This document shows, in pieces, positions 11,579 to 20,225 of a stretch of 64,000 nucleotides of DNA; positions within the stretch are counted from its first letter, which is position 1, and the number at the start of each line of letters is the position of its first letter. The DNA comes from Caldilineales bacterium (GTDB taxonomy: Bacteria; Chloroflexota; Anaerolineae; J102). The DNA is taken from positions 1-64,000 of the forward strand of contig JAIBAP010000001.1 in NCBI GenBank assembly GCA_019695115.1, read 5' to 3'. The position numbers and the translations under genes were made by a program. The notes under the pieces were generated by a model that ran no database searches, was not told where the DNA came from, and saw only the letters and a list, made by a program, of their open reading frames with translations.

Positions 11579-11684
11579 TGGCTGGCGATGACCGTTCGTG
11601 TGGGCGAGCCACGAAGCCAGGCCACACCTAACACACCCCGGCGCGTCCACCACCCCACTCCCCCCTCTCCCCATCGGAGGCTCC

Positions 11685-14156
11685 ATGTCCAAACGAACGC
11701 TTTGGCCGCTCCTGACGGCCCTCCTCCTGCTTCTGCTCGCGGCCGGGTGCACCGGCGGCGGCGTCAAGACGACAGTCCCGCCCGCCACCGCCGCGACGCC
11801 ATTGGCCGGCAGCCAGACACCTGCCGCCGATGCCACCGCCCCACCGCCGGCGCCCGGCCAGCTGCCTGCCACCCTGCGCCTGCAGCCGGCCGCCACCGCC
11901 CTTCCCGACGCCTGCCAACAGAGCGTGCGCCGCTTTAGCCTGGACGGCGTCGACCTGCCCAGAGAACTGGAGCCGGGCGTCGATTACCTCTTCTGTGCCC
12001 GCGGCGCCGAAGCAGGCAGCACCGTCATCTTCACCCTCACCGGCCCCGAAGACCTGCGTCTTGTCTACGAAGCCGCCAGCGCCACCCAGGGCGACACCAC
12101 CGTGGCGCCCCTGACTCTGCGCTTGAACGCCGACGCCAGGCCCGGTCGCTGGACGCTGACAGCCGCAGCCGGCGACGCCAAAGCCGATCTCGCCCTGCGC
12201 CTGGCGGCGCCGACGGCCCCCTTCATCGCCCTCACCGAGTCGCCAGGCGACAACCCGGGCCTCATCCGCGCCGGCATAGGCGGCCTCCCGCCTGATAGCC
12301 GCGCCAGCTTCGCCCTCTATCGGCTGGTCGAGGACGCCAGCGGCGGCGATGAAGGCGCCATCCTCATCTCGCTCCCCCTCAGCGCCGACGCCGCCGGCCG
12401 CGCCGACCTGGAACTGGATGTGGCTGACCTCCCCGCCGGCCGCTACCTGCTCGTCCTCCTGCCCGAGGGCGCCGAATTGGGCGACGCCGCCAGCTTGAGC
12501 GCCGCCGGTCTCGGCCGGCTCGCCGTCGCCACGGCCATCACCCGGCCTGCCGGGGTGGTGTCCGGGCCGGAAGCGGGCGGGGGCGTCTCGGTTCCCGTCG
12601 GCGGCCTTCCCCCCGCGCCCCAACCGGCGGCGAGCGGTGGTGGGCTGCCAGAGGCCGTCCAGTTCAACTTTGCGCCCGCCCAACTGCCGGTGTGCCCGCC
12701 CGCCGAAGCCCCCGCCCTGCAATTGTGGCCAGACGCGGGCGAGATCGGCAACTGGTGGCTGGGCTGCGCCAACGGCTTCCCCGCCAACGAAACCATCGAC
12801 ATCGTCGTCACAGCCCCCACCGGCCAAACAACCACCATTCCGGTGACGGCCAGCGCCAACGGCGCCGCCCCGTTCCGCTGGTACAGCGCACCGGGCGAGG
12901 GCGTGGGCGAGTACCAGGCCGTGGCCACCTCGGCCGGCGGCGCCACCGCCACCATCGCCTGGAGCATCGCCTCACCCACCCGGCCGCACGTCCTCGTCTT
13001 TGCCCACAACTACCCCAGCGCCGTTGGCGGTGAACTCTATCTCAGCGGCTTCCCGGCCAACAGCAAGGTCGATCTCGGTCTTTACAGCCTGGATGCGCAG
13101 GGAAAAGGGACGCTGGTCAAGCAATGGCAGCTTGATCTCAACCGCTTCGGCGCCCTGAGCAAACCCTTCGAAGAAGCCTTCGGCCTCGACACCGGCCAGT
13201 ACGCCGTCGTCGTCCAGGGTGGCCCGGCCTTCACCTTCGCCGGGCTGGATTTGGCGGCCAGCGCCTTCGACTTCTTCGGCTATGACGAAGAACTCGACCC
13301 CCGCTACGATGTCTACACCCTCTACCTGAACCGCGCCCCCGGAGCCGTCGCCCAGGCCACACCTGCGGCCGAACCTACGCCCACTAACGGGCCTACACCC
13401 GCGGCCGGCGAGGTGATCACCCCCACCGTCGCTGCCCCCGCCCCTCCTGACCAGATTCCCCCGGCCGTCGTCAGCATCCCCGAAGACAACAGCCCGCAGC
13501 CCACCTGCCCCGGCGCTGCGCCCGACGCCCCCAGCATCTGCCTGTTGCCCACCACCCTCGAGCGCGGCGCCTTCGCCTATCTCATGGCCCACGGCTTCCC
13601 GGCCGGGACGCGGATCGACGTCAGCGTGCGGACGCCCAAAGGCCAGCGCGTGGCCATCAGCGACCAGACCGACGCCCAGGGCTTTGCCGATTTCCACTGG
13701 TTTGCGCTCAACGACGAACCGTTGGGCGAGTACAAAGTCACGGCGCGCGGCGGCGGACAGACCTTCGAGGGCAGCTTCACGGTCGTGGCCGCAGCCAGTC
13801 CCCATCTCGTCGTCCAGCCTCGCACCGCGCCCATCGACGCCACCTCGATCATCGTCAGCGTCGCCGGCTTCCAACCCACCGAAAACCTGATCGTCGCCCG
13901 CTACCGCAGCGCCGGCGCCAGCGGCGGCGTCCTCAACTTCGAGTTGGTCGATACCATCGCTCTGCAAACCGGCGCTGGCGGCGGCGCCCAGAAGACCGTG
14001 GCCACGCCCCGCGCCCGTGCTGGCGACATCTACCTCCTCGCCGTCTACCGCCCCGACCAGGGCGAGGCCCTGGCTCAGGCCGTCTATAGCATCGGCCAGC
14101 CGCTGTACCTGCGCTATGCCTTTGCCTGGGGACAGAACTTCCAGGAAGGGCAGTGA
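11685..14156 (+). CDS. Large lipoprotein with duplicated Ig-like segments
   Basis: An 823-residue lipoprotein (signal with lipobox LLAAGC, then a Thr/Ala/Pro-rich linker). A clear CGGAGG ribosome-binding site precedes the ATG at 11685. At least two homologous segments can be seen, each with Cys-rich entry, FPA(N/G)..ID(I/V).V.(A/T)P.GQ and a W(Y/F)...(G)EY(K/Q)(V/A)(T/V)A segment, in the middle and C-terminal thirds, plus related shorter ones. This points to tandem beta-sandwich domains on the cell surface. I recognise no named family and infer an adhesion or envelope-structure role. Confidence 0.65.
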   Translation: MSKRTLWPLLTALLLLLLAAGCTGGGVKTTVPPATAATPLAGSQTPAADATAPPPAPGQLPATLRLQPAATALPDACQQSVRRFSLDGVDLPRELEPGVDYLFCARGAEAGSTVIFTLTGPEDLRLVYEAASATQGDTTVAPLTLRLNADARPGRWTLTAAAGDAKADLALRLAAPTAPFIALTESPGDNPGLIRAGIGGLPPDSRASFALYRLVEDASGGDEGAILISLPLSADAAGRADLELDVADLPAGRYLLVLLPEGAELGDAASLSAAGLGRLAVATAITRPAGVVSGPEAGGGVSVPVGGLPPAPQPAASGGGLPEAVQFNFAPAQLPVCPPAEAPALQLWPDAGEIGNWWLGCANGFPANETIDIVVTAPTGQTTTIPVTASANGAAPFRWYSAPGEGVGEYQAVATSAGGATATIAWSIASPTRPHVLVFAHNYPSAVGGELYLSGFPANSKVDLGLYSLDAQGKGTLVKQWQLDLNRFGALSKPFEEAFGLDTGQYAVVVQGGPAFTFAGLDLAASAFDFFGYDEELDPRYDVYTLYLNRAPGAVAQATPAAEPTPTNGPTPAAGEVITPTVAAPAPPDQIPPAVVSIPEDNSPQPTCPGAAPDAPSICLLPTTLERGAFAYLMAHGFPAGTRIDVSVRTPKGQRVAISDQTDAQGFADFHWFALNDEPLGEYKVTARGGGQTFEGSFTVVAAASPHLVVQPRTAPIDATSIIVSVAGFQPTENLIVARYRSAGASGGVLNFELVDTIALQTGAGGGAQKTVATPRARAGDIYLLAVYRPDQGEALAQAVYSIGQPLYLRYAFAWGQNFQEGQ

Positions 14157-14162
14157 ACAAAA

Positions 14163-14200
14163 AAACACCTGACAGGTGTTCAGACACCTGTCAGGTGTTT
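14163..14200. terminator. Bidirectional hairpin terminator between convergent genes
   Basis: A perfect 17-base-pair inverted repeat (arms 14163-14179 and 14184-14200, loop TCAG) with A residues before and T residues after it separates two convergent genes. Its core ACCTGACAG is shared with the hairpin at 25636. Confidence 0.85.
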
Positions 14201-14227
14201 CATTCGTGTGGGGGGATGGCCGGCCGC

Positions 14228-16903
14228 TTAGAAGTTCTTGCGGAAGACCAGGCTGAAGGAGTTGTGGAAGAGGGTGTTGCCGCCGCCGCCGTCGCTGCAC
14301 TCGGCTTCATCCGTGAAGTTGGAATGAACCGGTGAGGCGATGTCGCTGGCAGGCGAAGCGCCATCGTTGGAGATGAACACCATGTACTCGGCGCCCTTCC
14401 ACATGTCGAAGGTCGTTCGCCCCGGCTGAACTTCCATCGTCCAGCTGTCATGATCCTCGGTCTGTTTCTTGTCGATCACGTTGCCGGCGCCACCCGAAGA
14501 CTGGATGGCCCAGACGCCGTCGACGCCATTCCCGCCCGCATCCACAACCCGCACATACACGTTGTGCTTGCCGCGATTTTCGCACGGCGACAGGCGTCGC
14601 ATCTCGATCAGGCTGTACTGCACGCTTGGTTGGGGTGCAGCTGCCGCCGCCACCGCCGCCGGAGCCGCCGCCGGGGCAGCTGCTAGCGCTTTCGCTCGGA
14701 CGACCGGCGCCGGGGTGGGCGGCACGGGCGTGTCGGTCGGGGTGGGTAGGGGGGTCTCGGTGGGGGTTGCCGTGGGCAGAGGCGTCTCGGTGGGGGTTGG
14801 AGACGGGGTCGGTGTGTCGGTGGGGAGCGGGGTGAGGGTCGGTTCGGGTGTGTAGGTGGGCGTCGCTGCCGGTTGGTCGGCCTGCGTCTCAGCCGGGGGG
14901 TTGGCCAGGGCCAGGGCGACGGGGGCGATGCTGCTGCCGGTCGTGGCCAGGGCCAGACGCGAGACGTCTGCTTCGCCCGCCGAAGGCAGCGCCGCCGAGG
15001 TCTGCAAGGCGCCGATGAGGGCGGCCGGCAGCGAGATGCCCAGCAGGAAGACGACCAGCAGGATGATCAGCACCAGCCGCCATCTGGCGCCCGACGACAG
15101 GCCCCGGTACCAGAGGGCCAGGCCGTCCACAAGACCAGGCTTGGGGGCGGCAGCCGGGCGATCAGCCGGGCGAGCAGCCGGGCGAGCAGCCGGGCGGGGC
15201 GCAGGGGCGGGGGTGGGGCGAAGCGCCGGGGCGGGGGCCGGAGCTACGAATGCGCCGGCAGCCGCCGCCGCAGTTGCGCCTATCGCCGCCGCCACCGGGG
15301 CCATTGCCGGCAGGCGGGTGCGTCGCACCAGGCCACGGCTCAGGTTGAGGCCAAGCACCGGGAATTTGAGCGCCAAAGCCTCGAAGTCCTCGCGGCTCAA
15401 CTCCCAGATGTCGGTGTCGCCGTCGGCCACGGCCGTCACCCGGTGCGGCTCGCCGGTGAGGACCGAGCTTTCGCCGAAGAAGTCGCCGCCGCCAATGCTG
15501 ACGGCGCCACCCTGACGGCTGGAGAGGCGAACGGCGCCGGTCTCGACCAGATACAGTCGTTCGCCGGCGTCGCCCTCGCGATAGACCACCTCGCCGCTGC
15601 CGTAGCGGGCGGGGATGAGGCGGTCGGCGATGTCGCTCAGTTGGTCGGATGTCAGGCCGGCGAACAAGCCGATCTGACGCAGGTGTTTGGCGCCGAAAGC
15701 GCCGCCAGCCTGACCCAGTCGCTCGCCCAGGGTGCGGCTGAGGGCCTGGCTGAGGGCGGGGTGCCGGGCAAGCAGTTCGTCGAAATCGCTGCGATAGAGG
15801 ACCCAGAGATTGGTGGCTTCGGCGGTGCGCACACCAGTGGTGCGGCTCCGTCCGGTCAGCAACGCCATCTCGCCGAAGAAGCCACCCGCACCCAGCCGGG
15901 CGAGGACTTCGCCACGCCGGCTGACATTGCTGACGACCTCGACCCGACCGGAATCGATCAGATAGAGGGCGTCGCCGGGGCTGCCTTCGGTGTAGACGAC
16001 CTCATGGCCGGGCACATGCTGGAGCATGAGCCGTTCGGCCACGGCTTTGAGGGTCGTCGAGTCGAGGGAGGCGAAGATGGGCAGAGCCTGCAACCGCTCG
16101 ATGGCCAGTTGCTCGTCCTCCGGGCCGAGGCGCGCCCGCAATCCCTCGCTGAGATGGGCAAGAAGATTGGGGTTCTGTGCCGCCAGTTCGGTGAAGGCAG
16201 AGCGGCTGAGCGACCAGACCAGGGTTTCGGACTGGGCCTGGGCCGATTCGGCGTGCGGCTTGTCGGCCAGCATCGCCATCAGCCCCAGCACCTCGCCCGG
16301 CCCGGCATCGATCAGCAGTTCGTCGCGCTGGATGCGCGCAGCGCCGCTTTCGACGATGTAGAGGGCGTCTGGTTGGTTGCCTTCACGGAAGAGGGTGCGC
16401 CCGGCATGGAAGATCTCCACGTCCAGGTTGGCAGCGATCCGGCTTCGTTCGTCATCGCTCAGCGCTTCCAGACCCGGCGCCGTGCGCAGGCGTTGGCCGA
16501 CCAGGTAGGGCTCGAGCTGAGCCAACCGGGTGCCAAAGCTGCGCGAGAGCTGGATGCCAATGGTCGGGTTGGCGCTGACGATCTGTTCCAGATCGTGCGC
16601 GGAAAGCGCCCACACGTCCGTCTCGCCGGTGGCCTGGGCGCTGATGGTGCGCTTGCGGGCCAGGAAGACGTCGTTTTCACCGAAGATGGCGCCGACGCCA
16701 AGCGTGGCCAGGGTGACCGGGCCATAGCTGAGGCGGACGCCGCCGTGCTTGATCAGATAGAGGGCGTTGCTGGCGGCGTCTTCGCTAAAGACGATTTCAC
16801 CCGCAGCGAAATGCTGCAGGTGAAGGTGTTCCGCAAGCAGTTGGCGTTCTTCTGATTTCAAGTCGGCGAACGGTGAGGCGCGTTCCAATAAGTTCGTGCT
16901 CAC
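14228..16903 (-). CDS. Four cyclic-nucleotide-binding domains fused via a membrane helix to an exported domain
   Basis: An 891-residue protein. Residues ~10-125, 140-255, 270-390 and 410-520 are four CRP-like cyclic-nucleotide-binding domains; the third is closest to canonical (FGEMALLTGRSRT) and the second most degenerate. An Ala/Pro-rich segment leads to one membrane helix (608-632), then a Thr/Pro linker (670-735) and a C-terminal domain (760-891) with HNVYVRVVDAGGNGVDGV. No DNA-binding helix is present. The GTG at 16903 follows an AAGGAGG site. I infer cytoplasmic sensing coupled to an outer-face domain. The next gene upstream ends in a homologous domain, so the two probably act together. 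Confidence 0.8.
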   Translation of the reverse strand: MSTNLLERASPFADLKSEERQLLAEHLHLQHFAAGEIVFSEDAASNALYLIKHGGVRLSYGPVTLATLGVGAIFGENDVFLARKRTISAQATGETDVWALSAHDLEQIVSANPTIGIQLSRSFGTRLAQLEPYLVGQRLRTAPGLEALSDDERSRIAANLDVEIFHAGRTLFREGNQPDALYIVESGAARIQRDELLIDAGPGEVLGLMAMLADKPHAESAQAQSETLVWSLSRSAFTELAAQNPNLLAHLSEGLRARLGPEDEQLAIERLQALPIFASLDSTTLKAVAERLMLQHVPGHEVVYTEGSPGDALYLIDSGRVEVVSNVSRRGEVLARLGAGGFFGEMALLTGRSRTTGVRTAEATNLWVLYRSDFDELLARHPALSQALSRTLGERLGQAGGAFGAKHLRQIGLFAGLTSDQLSDIADRLIPARYGSGEVVYREGDAGERLYLVETGAVRLSSRQGGAVSIGGGDFFGESSVLTGEPHRVTAVADGDTDIWELSREDFEALALKFPVLGLNLSRGLVRRTRLPAMAPVAAAIGATAAAAAGAFVAPAPAPALRPTPAPAPRPAARPAARPADRPAAAPKPGLVDGLALWYRGLSSGARWRLVLIILLVVFLLGISLPAALIGALQTSAALPSAGEADVSRLALATTGSSIAPVALALANPPAETQADQPAATPTYTPEPTLTPLPTDTPTPSPTPTETPLPTATPTETPLPTPTDTPVPPTPAPVVRAKALAAAPAAAPAAVAAAAAPQPSVQYSLIEMRRLSPCENRGKHNVYVRVVDAGGNGVDGVWAIQSSGGAGNVIDKKQTEDHDSWTMEVQPGRTTFDMWKGAEYMVFISNDGASPASDIASPVHSNFTDEAECSDGGGGNTLFHNSFSLVFRKNF

Positions 16904-17039
16904 GTTGGGTTGCTACCTCCTTGGTTTGATGGCGGGTGATGGGGGCTGCGACACTGCATGCGGCCCCTCCGCGGGCCAAAGTTCCTCCTCAGGCGAGGAG
17001 AACGGCGCTAGGTTAACTCAGAGTATGAAAATTTTGCAA

Positions 17040-17107
17040 ACTTGGGGCGAGTCAGAAGGGGCAGAGGGCAGGGGGATAAGGAGACAAGGAGACAAGTAGA
17101 CAGGCAG
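17040..17107 (+). repeat. Purine-rich repeat between the two paired genes
   Basis: GGAGACAAGGAGACAAGTAGAC-like short repeats fill the gap after the stop of the SH3 protein gene. Unlike most arrays here, the pyrimidine-rich strand runs away from that gene and towards the start of the next gene downstream. Confidence 0.6.
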
Positions 17108-17111
17108 GCGC

Positions 17112-18365
17112 TCAGTTGTTGCGCCGGAACAGGACTTCGAAGGCATAATGGCCGACAGCAAACCAGTAGGTCTTGTTCTGCAGATCCTGTTGGCAGCTTT
17201 GCGGGTCGGCGTGAGGCTTGCAGTTGCAATAGCCGGCCGCCAACATCAGGTCGAAGTCCGGCCAGTCGGCGCTCATGCCGCGCGAGGCCTCGCCAATGCG
17301 ATTACCGGCTTCATCGACAATCTCCACCTGGCCGCCACCACCGCGATAGATATCGAACTCGACCCGACCATCTCCCTTGCCCTGGTCGCCGGTGACATGG
17401 ATCTGGCCGGTGAAGATTTCGCGCACCCGCACGCCGTTGAGTGCATTTCCAGCGGCATCGACCACCGTGACAAAGATGTTGTGGTCGCCAGCGTCACACC
17501 GCTGAGAATCCTGGCCCACCGGACGCAAGCGCACAGAAGCAGCGTAAGTCGGGGCCGCGGGCGCCGGCGGCGGCGGGGTGGGACGGGGCTGCGTGGGCGC
17601 GGGGGCGACGACGACGCGGGTGGGGGTGGGCGGCGGGGGGGCCTCGGCCACGGGGATGCCCTCGGTGTTGCCCTCGATGGTGACGAGCTGCCCCAGCACC
17701 CAGCCCACCGAGCCATCCTCGCGCTGGATCTGCCACCAATCGCCCGCCGGGTTACGGCCAACCAGCAGCGCCGCTTCGCCGGGCGCCATGTCGCCGATGA
17801 TGGCGTAGGTCAGGCCGGGGCCGCTGCGCACGTTGACTTCGCCCAGGGCGATGACCATCGGTTGGGCCGGGACGGTGGGGGTGGCCGTGGCCGGTTCGGG
17901 CGTGTAGGTGGGCGTGGCGGTGGGGATGATGGGGGTGGCGGTGGGCGGCGGGGTGGCGGTGGGCGGGACGGGGGTGGGCGTGGGGGGAGGGGTGGGGGTG
18001 GGCAGGTAGGCGACAAGGGCGCTGTTCGAGACGCCCAAAGCAGCCGCCAACTGCGCCAGCGCCGTCAATTCCTGCGGCCCGGCCCCGGCTGCAGCCCGGC
18101 GTTCGATCACTCCAGCGGTCATCTGGCCCGGATTCGGGGCCTGCAAGCTCTCGATCTGGCTGCGGGCCTGCTCCAGGTTGCCGGTTTGGGCAAAGCCCAG
18201 CGCCACCAGGGTCACGTATTCATCCTGTTGCGCGGGGGTGAGGTCGCTCACCTCGGCGCCCGACAGCCGGGGCAGCCACTGCGAGCCGGCCCAAAGTCCG
18301 ATCAGCAAACCGGCCGTAATGGCCACAAGGGCAATCAGCCAGCTAAGGTCACGTCGTTTGTTCAT
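17112..18365 (-). CDS. Membrane-anchored SH3b protein with the same C-terminal domain as the CRP-array protein
   Basis: A 417-residue protein: membrane helix at residues ~9-27, a short helical region (40-115), a Thr/Pro linker (121-165), a bacterial SH3 domain (168-230, VNVRSGPGLTYAIIGDM and WWQIQ), a second Pro-rich linker, and a C-terminal domain (275-417). That last domain aligns with the end of the CRP-array protein: DHNIFVTVVDAAGNALNGV against KHNVYVRVVDAGGNGVDGV, and both end in VLFRRN/LVFRKN. Several Cys residues in it could form disulfides. It lies directly upstream of the CRP-array gene in the same direction. The ligand of the shared domain is unknown. Confidence 0.75.
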   Translation of the reverse strand: MNKRRDLSWLIALVAITAGLLIGLWAGSQWLPRLSGAEVSDLTPAQQDEYVTLVALGFAQTGNLEQARSQIESLQAPNPGQMTAGVIERRAAAGAGPQELTALAQLAAALGVSNSALVAYLPTPTPPPTPTPVPPTATPPPTATPIIPTATPTYTPEPATATPTVPAQPMVIALGEVNVRSGPGLTYAIIGDMAPGEAALLVGRNPAGDWWQIQREDGSVGWVLGQLVTIEGNTEGIPVAEAPPPPTPTRVVVAPAPTQPRPTPPPPAPAAPTYAASVRLRPVGQDSQRCDAGDHNIFVTVVDAAGNALNGVRVREIFTGQIHVTGDQGKGDGRVEFDIYRGGGGQVEIVDEAGNRIGEASRGMSADWPDFDLMLAAGYCNCKPHADPQSCQQDLQNKTYWFAVGHYAFEVLFRRNN

Positions 18366-18549: not shown

Positions 18550-18558
18550 TGCTATAAT
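18550..18558 (+). promoter_or_regulatory. Extended -10 promoter-like site
   Basis: TGCTATAAT (18550-18558) on the plus strand is the best candidate promoter for the ECF sigma gene starting at 18803. The transcript would cross the tRNA-Leu gene in antisense. The -35 region is weak. Confidence 0.4.
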
Positions 18559-18601
18559 GAAGTCAGGTCGCCCTGTTCATGGGCTTCCCCTGAAGTCAGA
18601 G

Positions 18602-18685
18602 TGCCGAAGGTGGGACTTGAACCCACATGGAGCTATCTCCAACGGTGTTTGAGACCGTCGCGTCTGCCAATTCCGCCACTTCGGC
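18602..18685 (-). tRNA. tRNA-Leu (CAA)
   Basis: An 84-base class II tRNA with acceptor GCCGAAG/CTTCGGC, a long variable arm, anticodon loop CTCAAAC and A discriminator. Confidence 0.94.
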
Positions 18686-18724: not shown

Positions 18725-18802
18725 GAAAGCCCGGCTCCCACATTGGGCCTTGCGCCCGCCGCCCGGATGCCATCTGGCCCGCCGCCAAAGGGGTTGAGGC
18801 TG

Positions 18803-19405
18803 ATGGATGAGACGCGTTTGGTGCAGGCTGCGCGCGCGGGTGAGTTGGCGGCCTTCAATCAGTTGGTGCTCAGCTATCAGGGCATGGCCTACAACGTGGC
18901 CTATCGCGTCATGGGCGACCCGGATGCGGCCGCCGACGCCGCCCAGGATGCCTTCATCAAAGCCTACAAGGCGCTGGATAGTCTGCGCGGCGAATCGTTT
19001 CGGGCCTGGTTGATGCGGATCGTCACCAACACCTGCTACGACCAGTTGCGGGCCAAACAGCGCCGGCCGGCTACCAGCCTGGACGACCTGCTGGCCGAAA
19101 CCGAGGACCACTCCTGGCGACTGGCCGAACCGGGCGAGGGGCCAGACGAGCATGCCGAACGGGAGGAGTTGAGCCGCCTGCTGCAATGGGCCATCCAACA
19201 GCTGCCCGATGACCAGCGCGCGGTCGTCGTCCTTTCTGATATCGAGGGGCTTTCCTACGACGAGATCGCCCTCGCCACCGGCGCCCAGCTCGGCACGGTC
19301 AAATCCCGTCTCAGCCGGGCGCGAGCCAAGCTGCGCGACCTGCTGCAACAGCAACAGGAACTTCTGCCCCATCGCTATCGTCTAAGCACCGAACCCGTCC
19401 ACTGA
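18803..19405 (+). CDS. ECF-type RNA polymerase sigma factor
   Basis: A 200-residue sigma-70 family protein of the ECF group. Region 2 is seen at DAAADAAQDAFIKAYKALDSLRG and FRAWLMRIVTNTCYDQLR, region 4 at LPDDQRAVVVLSDIEGLSYDEIA with the helix-turn-helix GTVKSRLSRARAKLR. The ATG at 18803 begins the conserved part. It is followed after 13 bases by a membrane protein that fits an anti-sigma factor, so the pair is probably an envelope-stress or surface-signalling switch. Its target promoters cannot be read here. Confidence 0.9.
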   Translation: MDETRLVQAARAGELAAFNQLVLSYQGMAYNVAYRVMGDPDAAADAAQDAFIKAYKALDSLRGESFRAWLMRIVTNTCYDQLRAKQRRPATSLDDLLAETEDHSWRLAEPGEGPDEHAEREELSRLLQWAIQQLPDDQRAVVVLSDIEGLSYDEIALATGAQLGTVKSRLSRARAKLRDLLQQQQELLPHRYRLSTEPVH

Positions 19406-19418
19406 GACTCCCCCACCG

Positions 19419-20225
19419 ATGACCACGCCTCCGCCCCGTTCCCCCCTCCCCGCCATCAGCGACGAACTGCTTTCCGCCTATCTCGACGGACAGCTGACCG
19501 CCGCCGAAACGGCGCGGGTCGAGCAGGCGCGGGCGCTGAATGTGGAGGTGGCGATGCGGCTGGAGGCGATGGCGCACACGGTCGGGCTGCTGCGCCAGAC
19601 CCCGCGGCTGGCTGTGCCCCGCTCGTTCGTCCTCTCGGAGGCGCAGGTGCTGGCCGCGGGCGGACGTGTGAAGGGGACGCAACCGGCCCGACGCGCAGGT
19701 GGGTTCTGGGCCTGGCTGGGTGGGCTTTCCCCGCGCCTGATGCCGCTGGCGACGGCGGCAGTGGCGCTGGCGCTGTTGGTAGTGGTGGGGATGGATGTGC
19801 GCGGCGCCCAGGCGCCGGCGGCCCGCCCGGCGTCGCTGGCCCCGGCGCCGTCCGAGACGCCGGCAGAGATGACGATGGACGCCCTGAGATCGGCCAACGC
19901 GCCCGAACCGGCGGCAACCGCAGAAGTGGCGGCGGCAGCTGAAGCAAAGATGCCTGCTGCCACGCCGACAGAAGCGGCGTCTCTGGCGGCAGAGTCGGCG
20001 CCGGTGGGAGAAGCCGCGCAGCTTGGGGCCGAGGCCGGCGAAGACGGCGCGACCGAAAAAGCCGCTTTCATCGGCGAAGAAGGATCCGCCCCGACCATGC
20101 CAACCCCTCCAGCCGGCCCGGCGCCCCTGCGCCTGCTGGAACTGGCACTGGCGGGGATGCTGGCGGCCCTGGCGGCCCTGACGTTGCTGGCCAGGCGGGC
20201 GCGAGAGCACGGCGATCATATTTGA
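19419..20225 (+). CDS. Anti-sigma factor-like membrane protein
   Basis: A 268-residue protein. The N-terminus (ISDELLSAYLDGQLTAAETARVEQ) matches the helical anti-sigma domain found in many membrane anti-sigma factors, but the zinc-binding His/Cys residues are absent. One membrane helix follows (~105-125), then an Ala/Glu/Pro-rich exported segment, and a second helix near the C-terminus (~230-255) before a basic tail. The position right after the ECF sigma gene supports a role in holding that sigma at the membrane. Confidence 0.75.
   Translation: MTTPPPRSPLPAISDELLSAYLDGQLTAAETARVEQARALNVEVAMRLEAMAHTVGLLRQTPRLAVPRSFVLSEAQVLAAGGRVKGTQPARRAGGFWAWLGGLSPRLMPLATAAVALALLVVVGMDVRGAQAPAARPASLAPAPSETPAEMTMDALRSANAPEPAATAEVAAAAEAKMPAATPTEAASLAAESAPVGEAAQLGAEAGEDGATEKAAFIGEEGSAPTMPTPPAGPAPLRLLELALAGMLAALAALTLLARRAREHGDHI

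Follow-up and report, generated by a model that had tools for sequence, protein, structure and literature searches.

The window analysed here, 64,000 nucleotides (nt) of contig JAIBAP010000001.1, encodes a membrane protein with four cyclic-nucleotide-binding (CNB) domains, which we call P, and directly upstream of it a membrane-anchored SH3 protein, called Q. By gene order and domain content Q and P make up one half of a four-gene locus, the other half being a divergent sigma factor of the extracytoplasmic function (ECF) type and a membrane protein with an anti-sigma-like ZAS (zf-HC2) domain. Together the four genes look like an undescribed bacterial envelope-signalling system. Our favoured explanation, to which we give a probability of roughly 0.4, is that they constitute a conserved envelope-signalling locus of the Anaerolineae Chloroflexota with P as its transmembrane transducer. 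These bacteria are abundant in sediments and sludge and, to our knowledge, little is known about their envelope sensing. An initial annotation of this DNA had proposed P and Q as a signalling pair of their own; the sigma/ZAS half was absent from its account.

The evidence for a common locus comes from the gene order in relatives. Because the 52 annotated Q loci were picked via the Q or the P domain, the search gene itself does not count as evidence but its companions do, above all the sigma factor and the ZAS protein. P lies downstream of Q on the same strand in 44 of the 52 loci, either within 500 nt (35 loci) or at about 0.7-1.4 kb, usually with one gene between (9 loci), and the loci with this order cover at least 12 families of Chloroflexota. 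A sigma factor was found in 41 of the 44 loci and is divergent from Q-P in every one of them, and the ZAS protein is present in 39, normally directly after the sigma gene. In 37 distant loci the sigma factor is retained 30 times and the ZAS protein 27 times, whereas seven of eight other genes from the window are found in none and one is found in two. Therefore, the sigma/ZAS/Q-P block has been held together while its surroundings have not. A class-wide survey of 396 genomes, in which P-like proteins were defined by a match to a profile of CNB4 plus transmembrane (TM) helix reaching the helix, identified P-like proteins in 81 genomes, the Q outer domain in 89, and both in 56 (Fisher p 1.5e-25). 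This value is conservative, since several genomes possess a P whose profile match is broken up by insertions. Within the order, the outer-domain search was positive in 18 of 20 genomes, a few of which match only other proteins bearing the domain. The adjacency of P and Q proposed by the initial annotation is thus conserved far beyond close relatives. Q is indeed directly upstream of P, although the gap in the window is 208 nt and in relatives often only a few bases, or the genes overlap; because of this gap the co-transcription of P and Q is not certain in the window's genome. Q is present as a tandem duplicate upstream of P at L011:5104-7787, and a tandem Q occurs in another genome as well (G415, locus L158).

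The sigma/ZAS half is, judged by its domains, an ordinary ECF pair. The sigma gene comprises regions 2 and 4 only (PF04542 and PF08281), scores 124.9 bits with TIGR02937 against a cut-off of 42.9, and probably starts at the ATG at 18803. The ZAS protein, a predicted anti-sigma factor, has an N-terminal zf-HC2 domain, which matches in the window above the gathering score (8e-5, 23.1 bits versus 22.2) and has lost its cysteines there, whereas the relatives have canonical cysteines (1e-10). The domain is followed by a TM helix in nearly all relatives, and one family adds a PD40 propeller on the extracytoplasmic side; two loci of the lineage with two-CNB P proteins (L178, L180) encode a ZAS protein with such a PD40/TolB-like propeller outside. 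The RpoE-, SigW-, and SigM-like systems likewise have an ECF sigma factor (sigma-70 r2/r4, TIGR02937) and, after it, a TM protein whose N-terminus is a zf-HC2/ZAS domain. The Q-P half, a divergent and conserved envelope-protein pair with a CNB array, seems foreign to the described ECF systems, and none of the described ECF loci known to us contains such a pair. Concerning proteins that combine CNB domains, a TM helix, and an exported domain, or CNB domains together with an ECF sigma factor in Chloroflexi, nothing relevant was found in the open-access literature.

P was predicted to consist of four CNB domains, one TM helix, a Thr/Pro stalk, and an outer domain, without any DNA-binding, kinase, or channel part, and this anatomy is borne out. 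Pfam finds four stretches of cNMP_binding (PF00027, E 1.6e-76), corresponding to the CNB fold, and no helix-turn-helix, kinase, or channel domain; the C-terminal helix-turn-helix of CRP/Fnr proteins is missing. The single strong TM helix comprises residues 612-630; after it come a stalk rich in Thr and Pro and, at residues 758-891, the outer domain. Positively charged residues lie on the N-terminal side of the helix, which would place the CNB array in the cytoplasm and both the stalk and the outer domain outside. Four positions in and before the helix (W598, R/K607, L620, P626) are conserved in 18 of 18 aligned relatives, including those with only two CNB domains, which is more than a mere anchor would appear to need. 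This juxtamembrane/TM motif and CNB3 are the most constant features of P across relatives. With CRP/Fnr-type proteins and the regulatory subunits of protein kinase A (PKA), P has in common its tandem PF00027 domains and one canonical phosphate-binding cassette, but it has no helix-turn-helix, kinase partner, or channel, is tethered to the membrane, and has several degenerate pockets in most of its members.

The outer domains of P and Q are homologous according to several comparisons. They match each other in blastp (E 2e-7) and in hhalign with a probability of 97.9, which rises to 99.6% (E 2.3e-24) once more sequences are added, and a profile of the Q domain matches every P orthologue in the order, in most cases over the full length. 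Thus, the gene upstream of P does encode a membrane-anchored SH3 protein with a homologous C-terminal domain, as had been claimed. For the shared domain no sequence family was found in Pfam, NCBIfam, or the PDB sequences, so that in these libraries it still stands outside any well-known family. AlphaFold2 predicts a confident beta-sandwich for the domain of P (mean predicted local distance difference test, pLDDT, 83.5) and a weaker model for that of Q (65.6). The best structural matches of the model (VIA) are 6FWV (Z 8.5, root-mean-square deviation 3.4, 85 aligned residues) and 3KPT (Z 8.2, 2.3, 83 aligned residues), and a Z score of 8.5 is at the level of generic beta-sandwiches. The domain accordingly models as a sandwich resembling CnaB, transthyretin, and carboxypeptidase regulatory-like domains, which is a generic fold without fixed function; the likeness is in the predicted fold and, unlike those domains, the P/Q domain matches no sequence family. 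At least two subtypes of the outer domain exist among the P orthologues, and relatives are also present in other Chloroflexota proteins. Among these are proteins of about 320 residues, widespread in the order (L002, L086, L099-L108, L113), which have a related domain close to their N-terminus and lack an obvious signal peptide, and a long protein (L111), by eye glycoside hydrolase-like with carboxypeptidase-regulatory-like repeats.

The initial annotation had read the CNB array as a four-fold nucleotide sensor, of which only part can be retained. A cassette was scored as intact if both the Glu/Asp and the Arg of the phosphate-binding cassette are present, the Arg being what holds the cyclic phosphate in place in CRP and PKA. 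Of 35 four-CNB orthologues, 30 have an intact cassette in CNB3, 15 in CNB4, 13 in CNB1, and none in CNB2; in seven two-CNB orthologues no cassette is intact. Most of the four pockets have thus decayed. The enzymes that would supply a ligand are also often absent: class III cyclases are encoded in six of the 20 genomes of the order and in 24 of 35 genomes of the class with the locus, leaving 11 with none, although the genome from which the window comes shows 13 matches to class III cyclase domains. The presence of an intact pocket is not associated with the presence of a class III cyclase (18/8 versus 6/3, Fisher p 1.0). CYTH proteins, among which there could be class IV cyclases making cyclic AMP (cAMP), are found in 14 of the 20 genomes of the order; one genome that has P and is 96% complete (G184) encodes neither a class III cyclase nor a CYTH protein. 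It is therefore possible that a cyclic nucleotide is sensed at CNB3, but to judge from the cassettes such sensing does not extend to the family as a whole, and four cyclic-nucleotide-binding domains need not mean four nucleotide sensors.

Variant loci separate a core from additions. In the genus g335, represented by two loci (L252, L253), P stops just past the TM helix and lacks the stalk and the outer domain, and Q is missing. The sigma factor is nevertheless still divergent with the tRNA-Leu gene between, and the ZAS protein is found in L253 but not in L252. Another locus (L258) encodes a two-CNB P together with the sigma factor and the ZAS protein, again without Q. The description of the CNB array as joined to an exported domain is consequently correct for the P of the window but not universal.

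The favoured explanation is supported by the gene order, by the co-occurrence of P and Q, by the flank control, by the sigma factor and the tRNA-Leu staying beside a P that has lost its outer parts and Q, by a TM motif conserved beyond the needs of an anchor, and by the build of the ZAS protein with its zf-HC2 domain, TM helix, and, in one family, outer propeller. In this locus P and Q would be the envelope-facing half, and the divergent ECF sigma factor and the membrane-bound ZAS anti-sigma protein the other half. P would be a single-pass transducer, with the tandem CNB array on the cytoplasmic side and the transthyretin-like domain on its stalk outside, beside Q. In addition to the P-like domain, Q carries an SH3 module that is likely to touch the cell wall. 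The trigger could come from outside, through P/Q and the envelope, or from inside, through a ligand at CNB3 or a rearrangement of the array, and the signal would cross via the conserved TM helix and modulate the sigma/anti-sigma switch. In a more specific version, P would be a ligand-gated regulator of this switch, its single TM helix combining ligand binding at the cytoplasmic CNB3 with the condition of Q and the cell wall on the outside and so determining the sigma activity. This version appears rather doubtful to us; if true, it would be a type of transmembrane signalling without earlier description. Should the linkage be functional, ECF signalling would gain a sensor of a new kind, and there would be a testable role for P and Q and for the outer domain that has no family name.

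Several points weigh against a signalling locus with P as transducer. We infer the contacts of P with Q, the sigma factor, or the anti-sigma-like ZAS protein, as well as the direction of the signal and any ligand of the CNB domains. The tRNA-Leu gene also stays at the locus, so that part of the gene order may be positional inertia. An autoregulatory motif of the ECF type was not found, and the conserved promoter toward the sigma gene is sigma70-like. A few genomes encode the sigma factor and Q without P alongside (L154, L156), and in one family (f94; L255, L256, L259) P is present with neither the sigma factor nor Q nearby. By eye only, the divergent neighbour of P in this family reads as an HD-type phosphohydrolase-like protein.

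The main rival explanation regards P and Q as outputs, namely structural surface proteins under the control of the neighbouring ECF sigma factor, the CNB array being a cytoplasmic anchor or multimerisation scaffold with mostly decayed pockets. Divergent genes are common ECF targets and Thr/Pro stalks typically occur in surface-displayed proteins, and both the lack of intact pockets in the two-CNB orthologues and the loss or swapping of the outer domain among subtypes would fit. This explanation does not account well for the Glu/Asp and Arg kept in CNB3, for a TM motif more conserved than an anchor requires, or for a P without outer part persisting next to the sigma factor, and we consider it somewhat unlikely. 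The model of the initial annotation, in which P is a cyclic-nucleotide receptor signalling inside-out to its surface domain, ranks third and seems improbable. Its nearest functional analogue is LapD, an inside-out receptor for cyclic di-GMP (c-di-GMP; PMC3032545, PMC3032553), in which a cytoplasmic nucleotide-type domain is likewise connected, across the membrane, with an output domain on the outer side. However, P has a single TM helix and other folds on both sides of the membrane and shares no domain with LapD; according to Pfam it contains no GGDEF or EAL domain, and so not the degenerate GGDEF-EAL arrangement of LapD. The topology, the canonical and conserved CNB3 cassette, and the many cyclase matches in the window's genome agree with this model, but the patchy distribution of class III cyclases, the independence of intact pockets from them, and the loss of the whole outer domain from P in one genus do not. 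It is only weakened by these findings because the CYTH proteins could make cAMP.

It could also be imagined that the gene order reflects vertical synteny around the tRNA gene without any functional linkage, given that tRNA-Leu remains in the block. With the flanking genes so rarely retained compared to the sigma factor and the ZAS protein, and with a spread across so many families, this is very unlikely. That P is a Pycsar-like antiphage effector with CNB domains and a membrane killer domain is hardly credible. The PADLOC Pycsar models do match P, but all of them, PycC included, cover the CNB part only. In addition, there is no cyclase among the neighbours of P in the window (MG2 and TPR proteins, Q, sigma factor, and ZAS protein), and the locus is conserved in families and not patchy.

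Features of the locus (all coordinates are positions in the window)
Feature	Position	Strand	Description
P	14228..16903	-	891-residue bitopic protein: four CNB domains, TM helix, Thr/Pro stalk, outer domain; orthologues known
P CNB1 (residues ~10-130)	16514..16876	-	Glu/Asp in 35/35, Arg in 13/35 four-CNB orthologues
P CNB2 (residues ~139-262)	16118..16489	-	degenerate, Arg 0/35
P CNB3 (residues ~271-398)	15710..16093	-	canonical FFGEMALLTG.xRT cassette, intact in 30/35
P CNB4 (residues ~407-530)	15314..15685	-	His in place of Arg in the window; intact in 15/35
P juxtamembrane and TM segment	14993..15112	-	W598, R/K607, L620, P626 invariant among aligned relatives
P Thr/Pro stalk	14705..14857	-	from sequence and orthologue alignment
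P outer domain	14231..14632	-	modelled transthyretin/CnaB-like beta-sandwich, pLDDT 83.5
Terminator-like hairpin 3' of P	14162..14201	-	18-pair stem and T run; consensus match only, as many found as in shuffles
Q	17112..18365	-	417 residues, N-terminal TM anchor, SH3 protein, outer domain homologous to that of P
Q SH3_3 domain	17682..17840	-	Pfam E 7e-9
Q outer domain (residues 274-417)	17115..17546	-	modelled with pLDDT 65.6; Foldseek matches of the same kinds as for P
tRNA-Leu(CAA)	18601..18685	-	between sigma gene and Q; kept in most relatives, even where Q is lost
TGnTATAATG -10 element	18550..18559	+	conserved, directed at the sigma gene, beyond tRNA-Leu
ECF sigma factor	18743..19405	+	divergent from Q-P; Pfam, NCBIfam TIGR02937; conserved
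Membrane ZAS (zf-HC2) anti-sigma-like protein	19419..20225	+	zinc site degenerate in the window, canonical Cys in relatives

In the upstream regions of the relatives a TATAAT toward the sigma gene is present in 36 of 46 cases, and on the opposite strand in three. Because the element lies beyond the tRNA-Leu gene, the leader of the sigma transcript would run antisense through the tRNA. Apparent ECF promoter motifs upstream of Q, P, and the sigma gene turned out to be tRNA-Leu sequence, leaving only the sigma70-like -10 element, and the tRNA masks other signals. P starts with a GTG codon, ahead of which there is a ribosome-binding site, aaggagg. Its convergent neighbour (11598-14156, plus strand) encodes a lipoprotein-like protein with an MG2 domain, which is not conserved at the locus.

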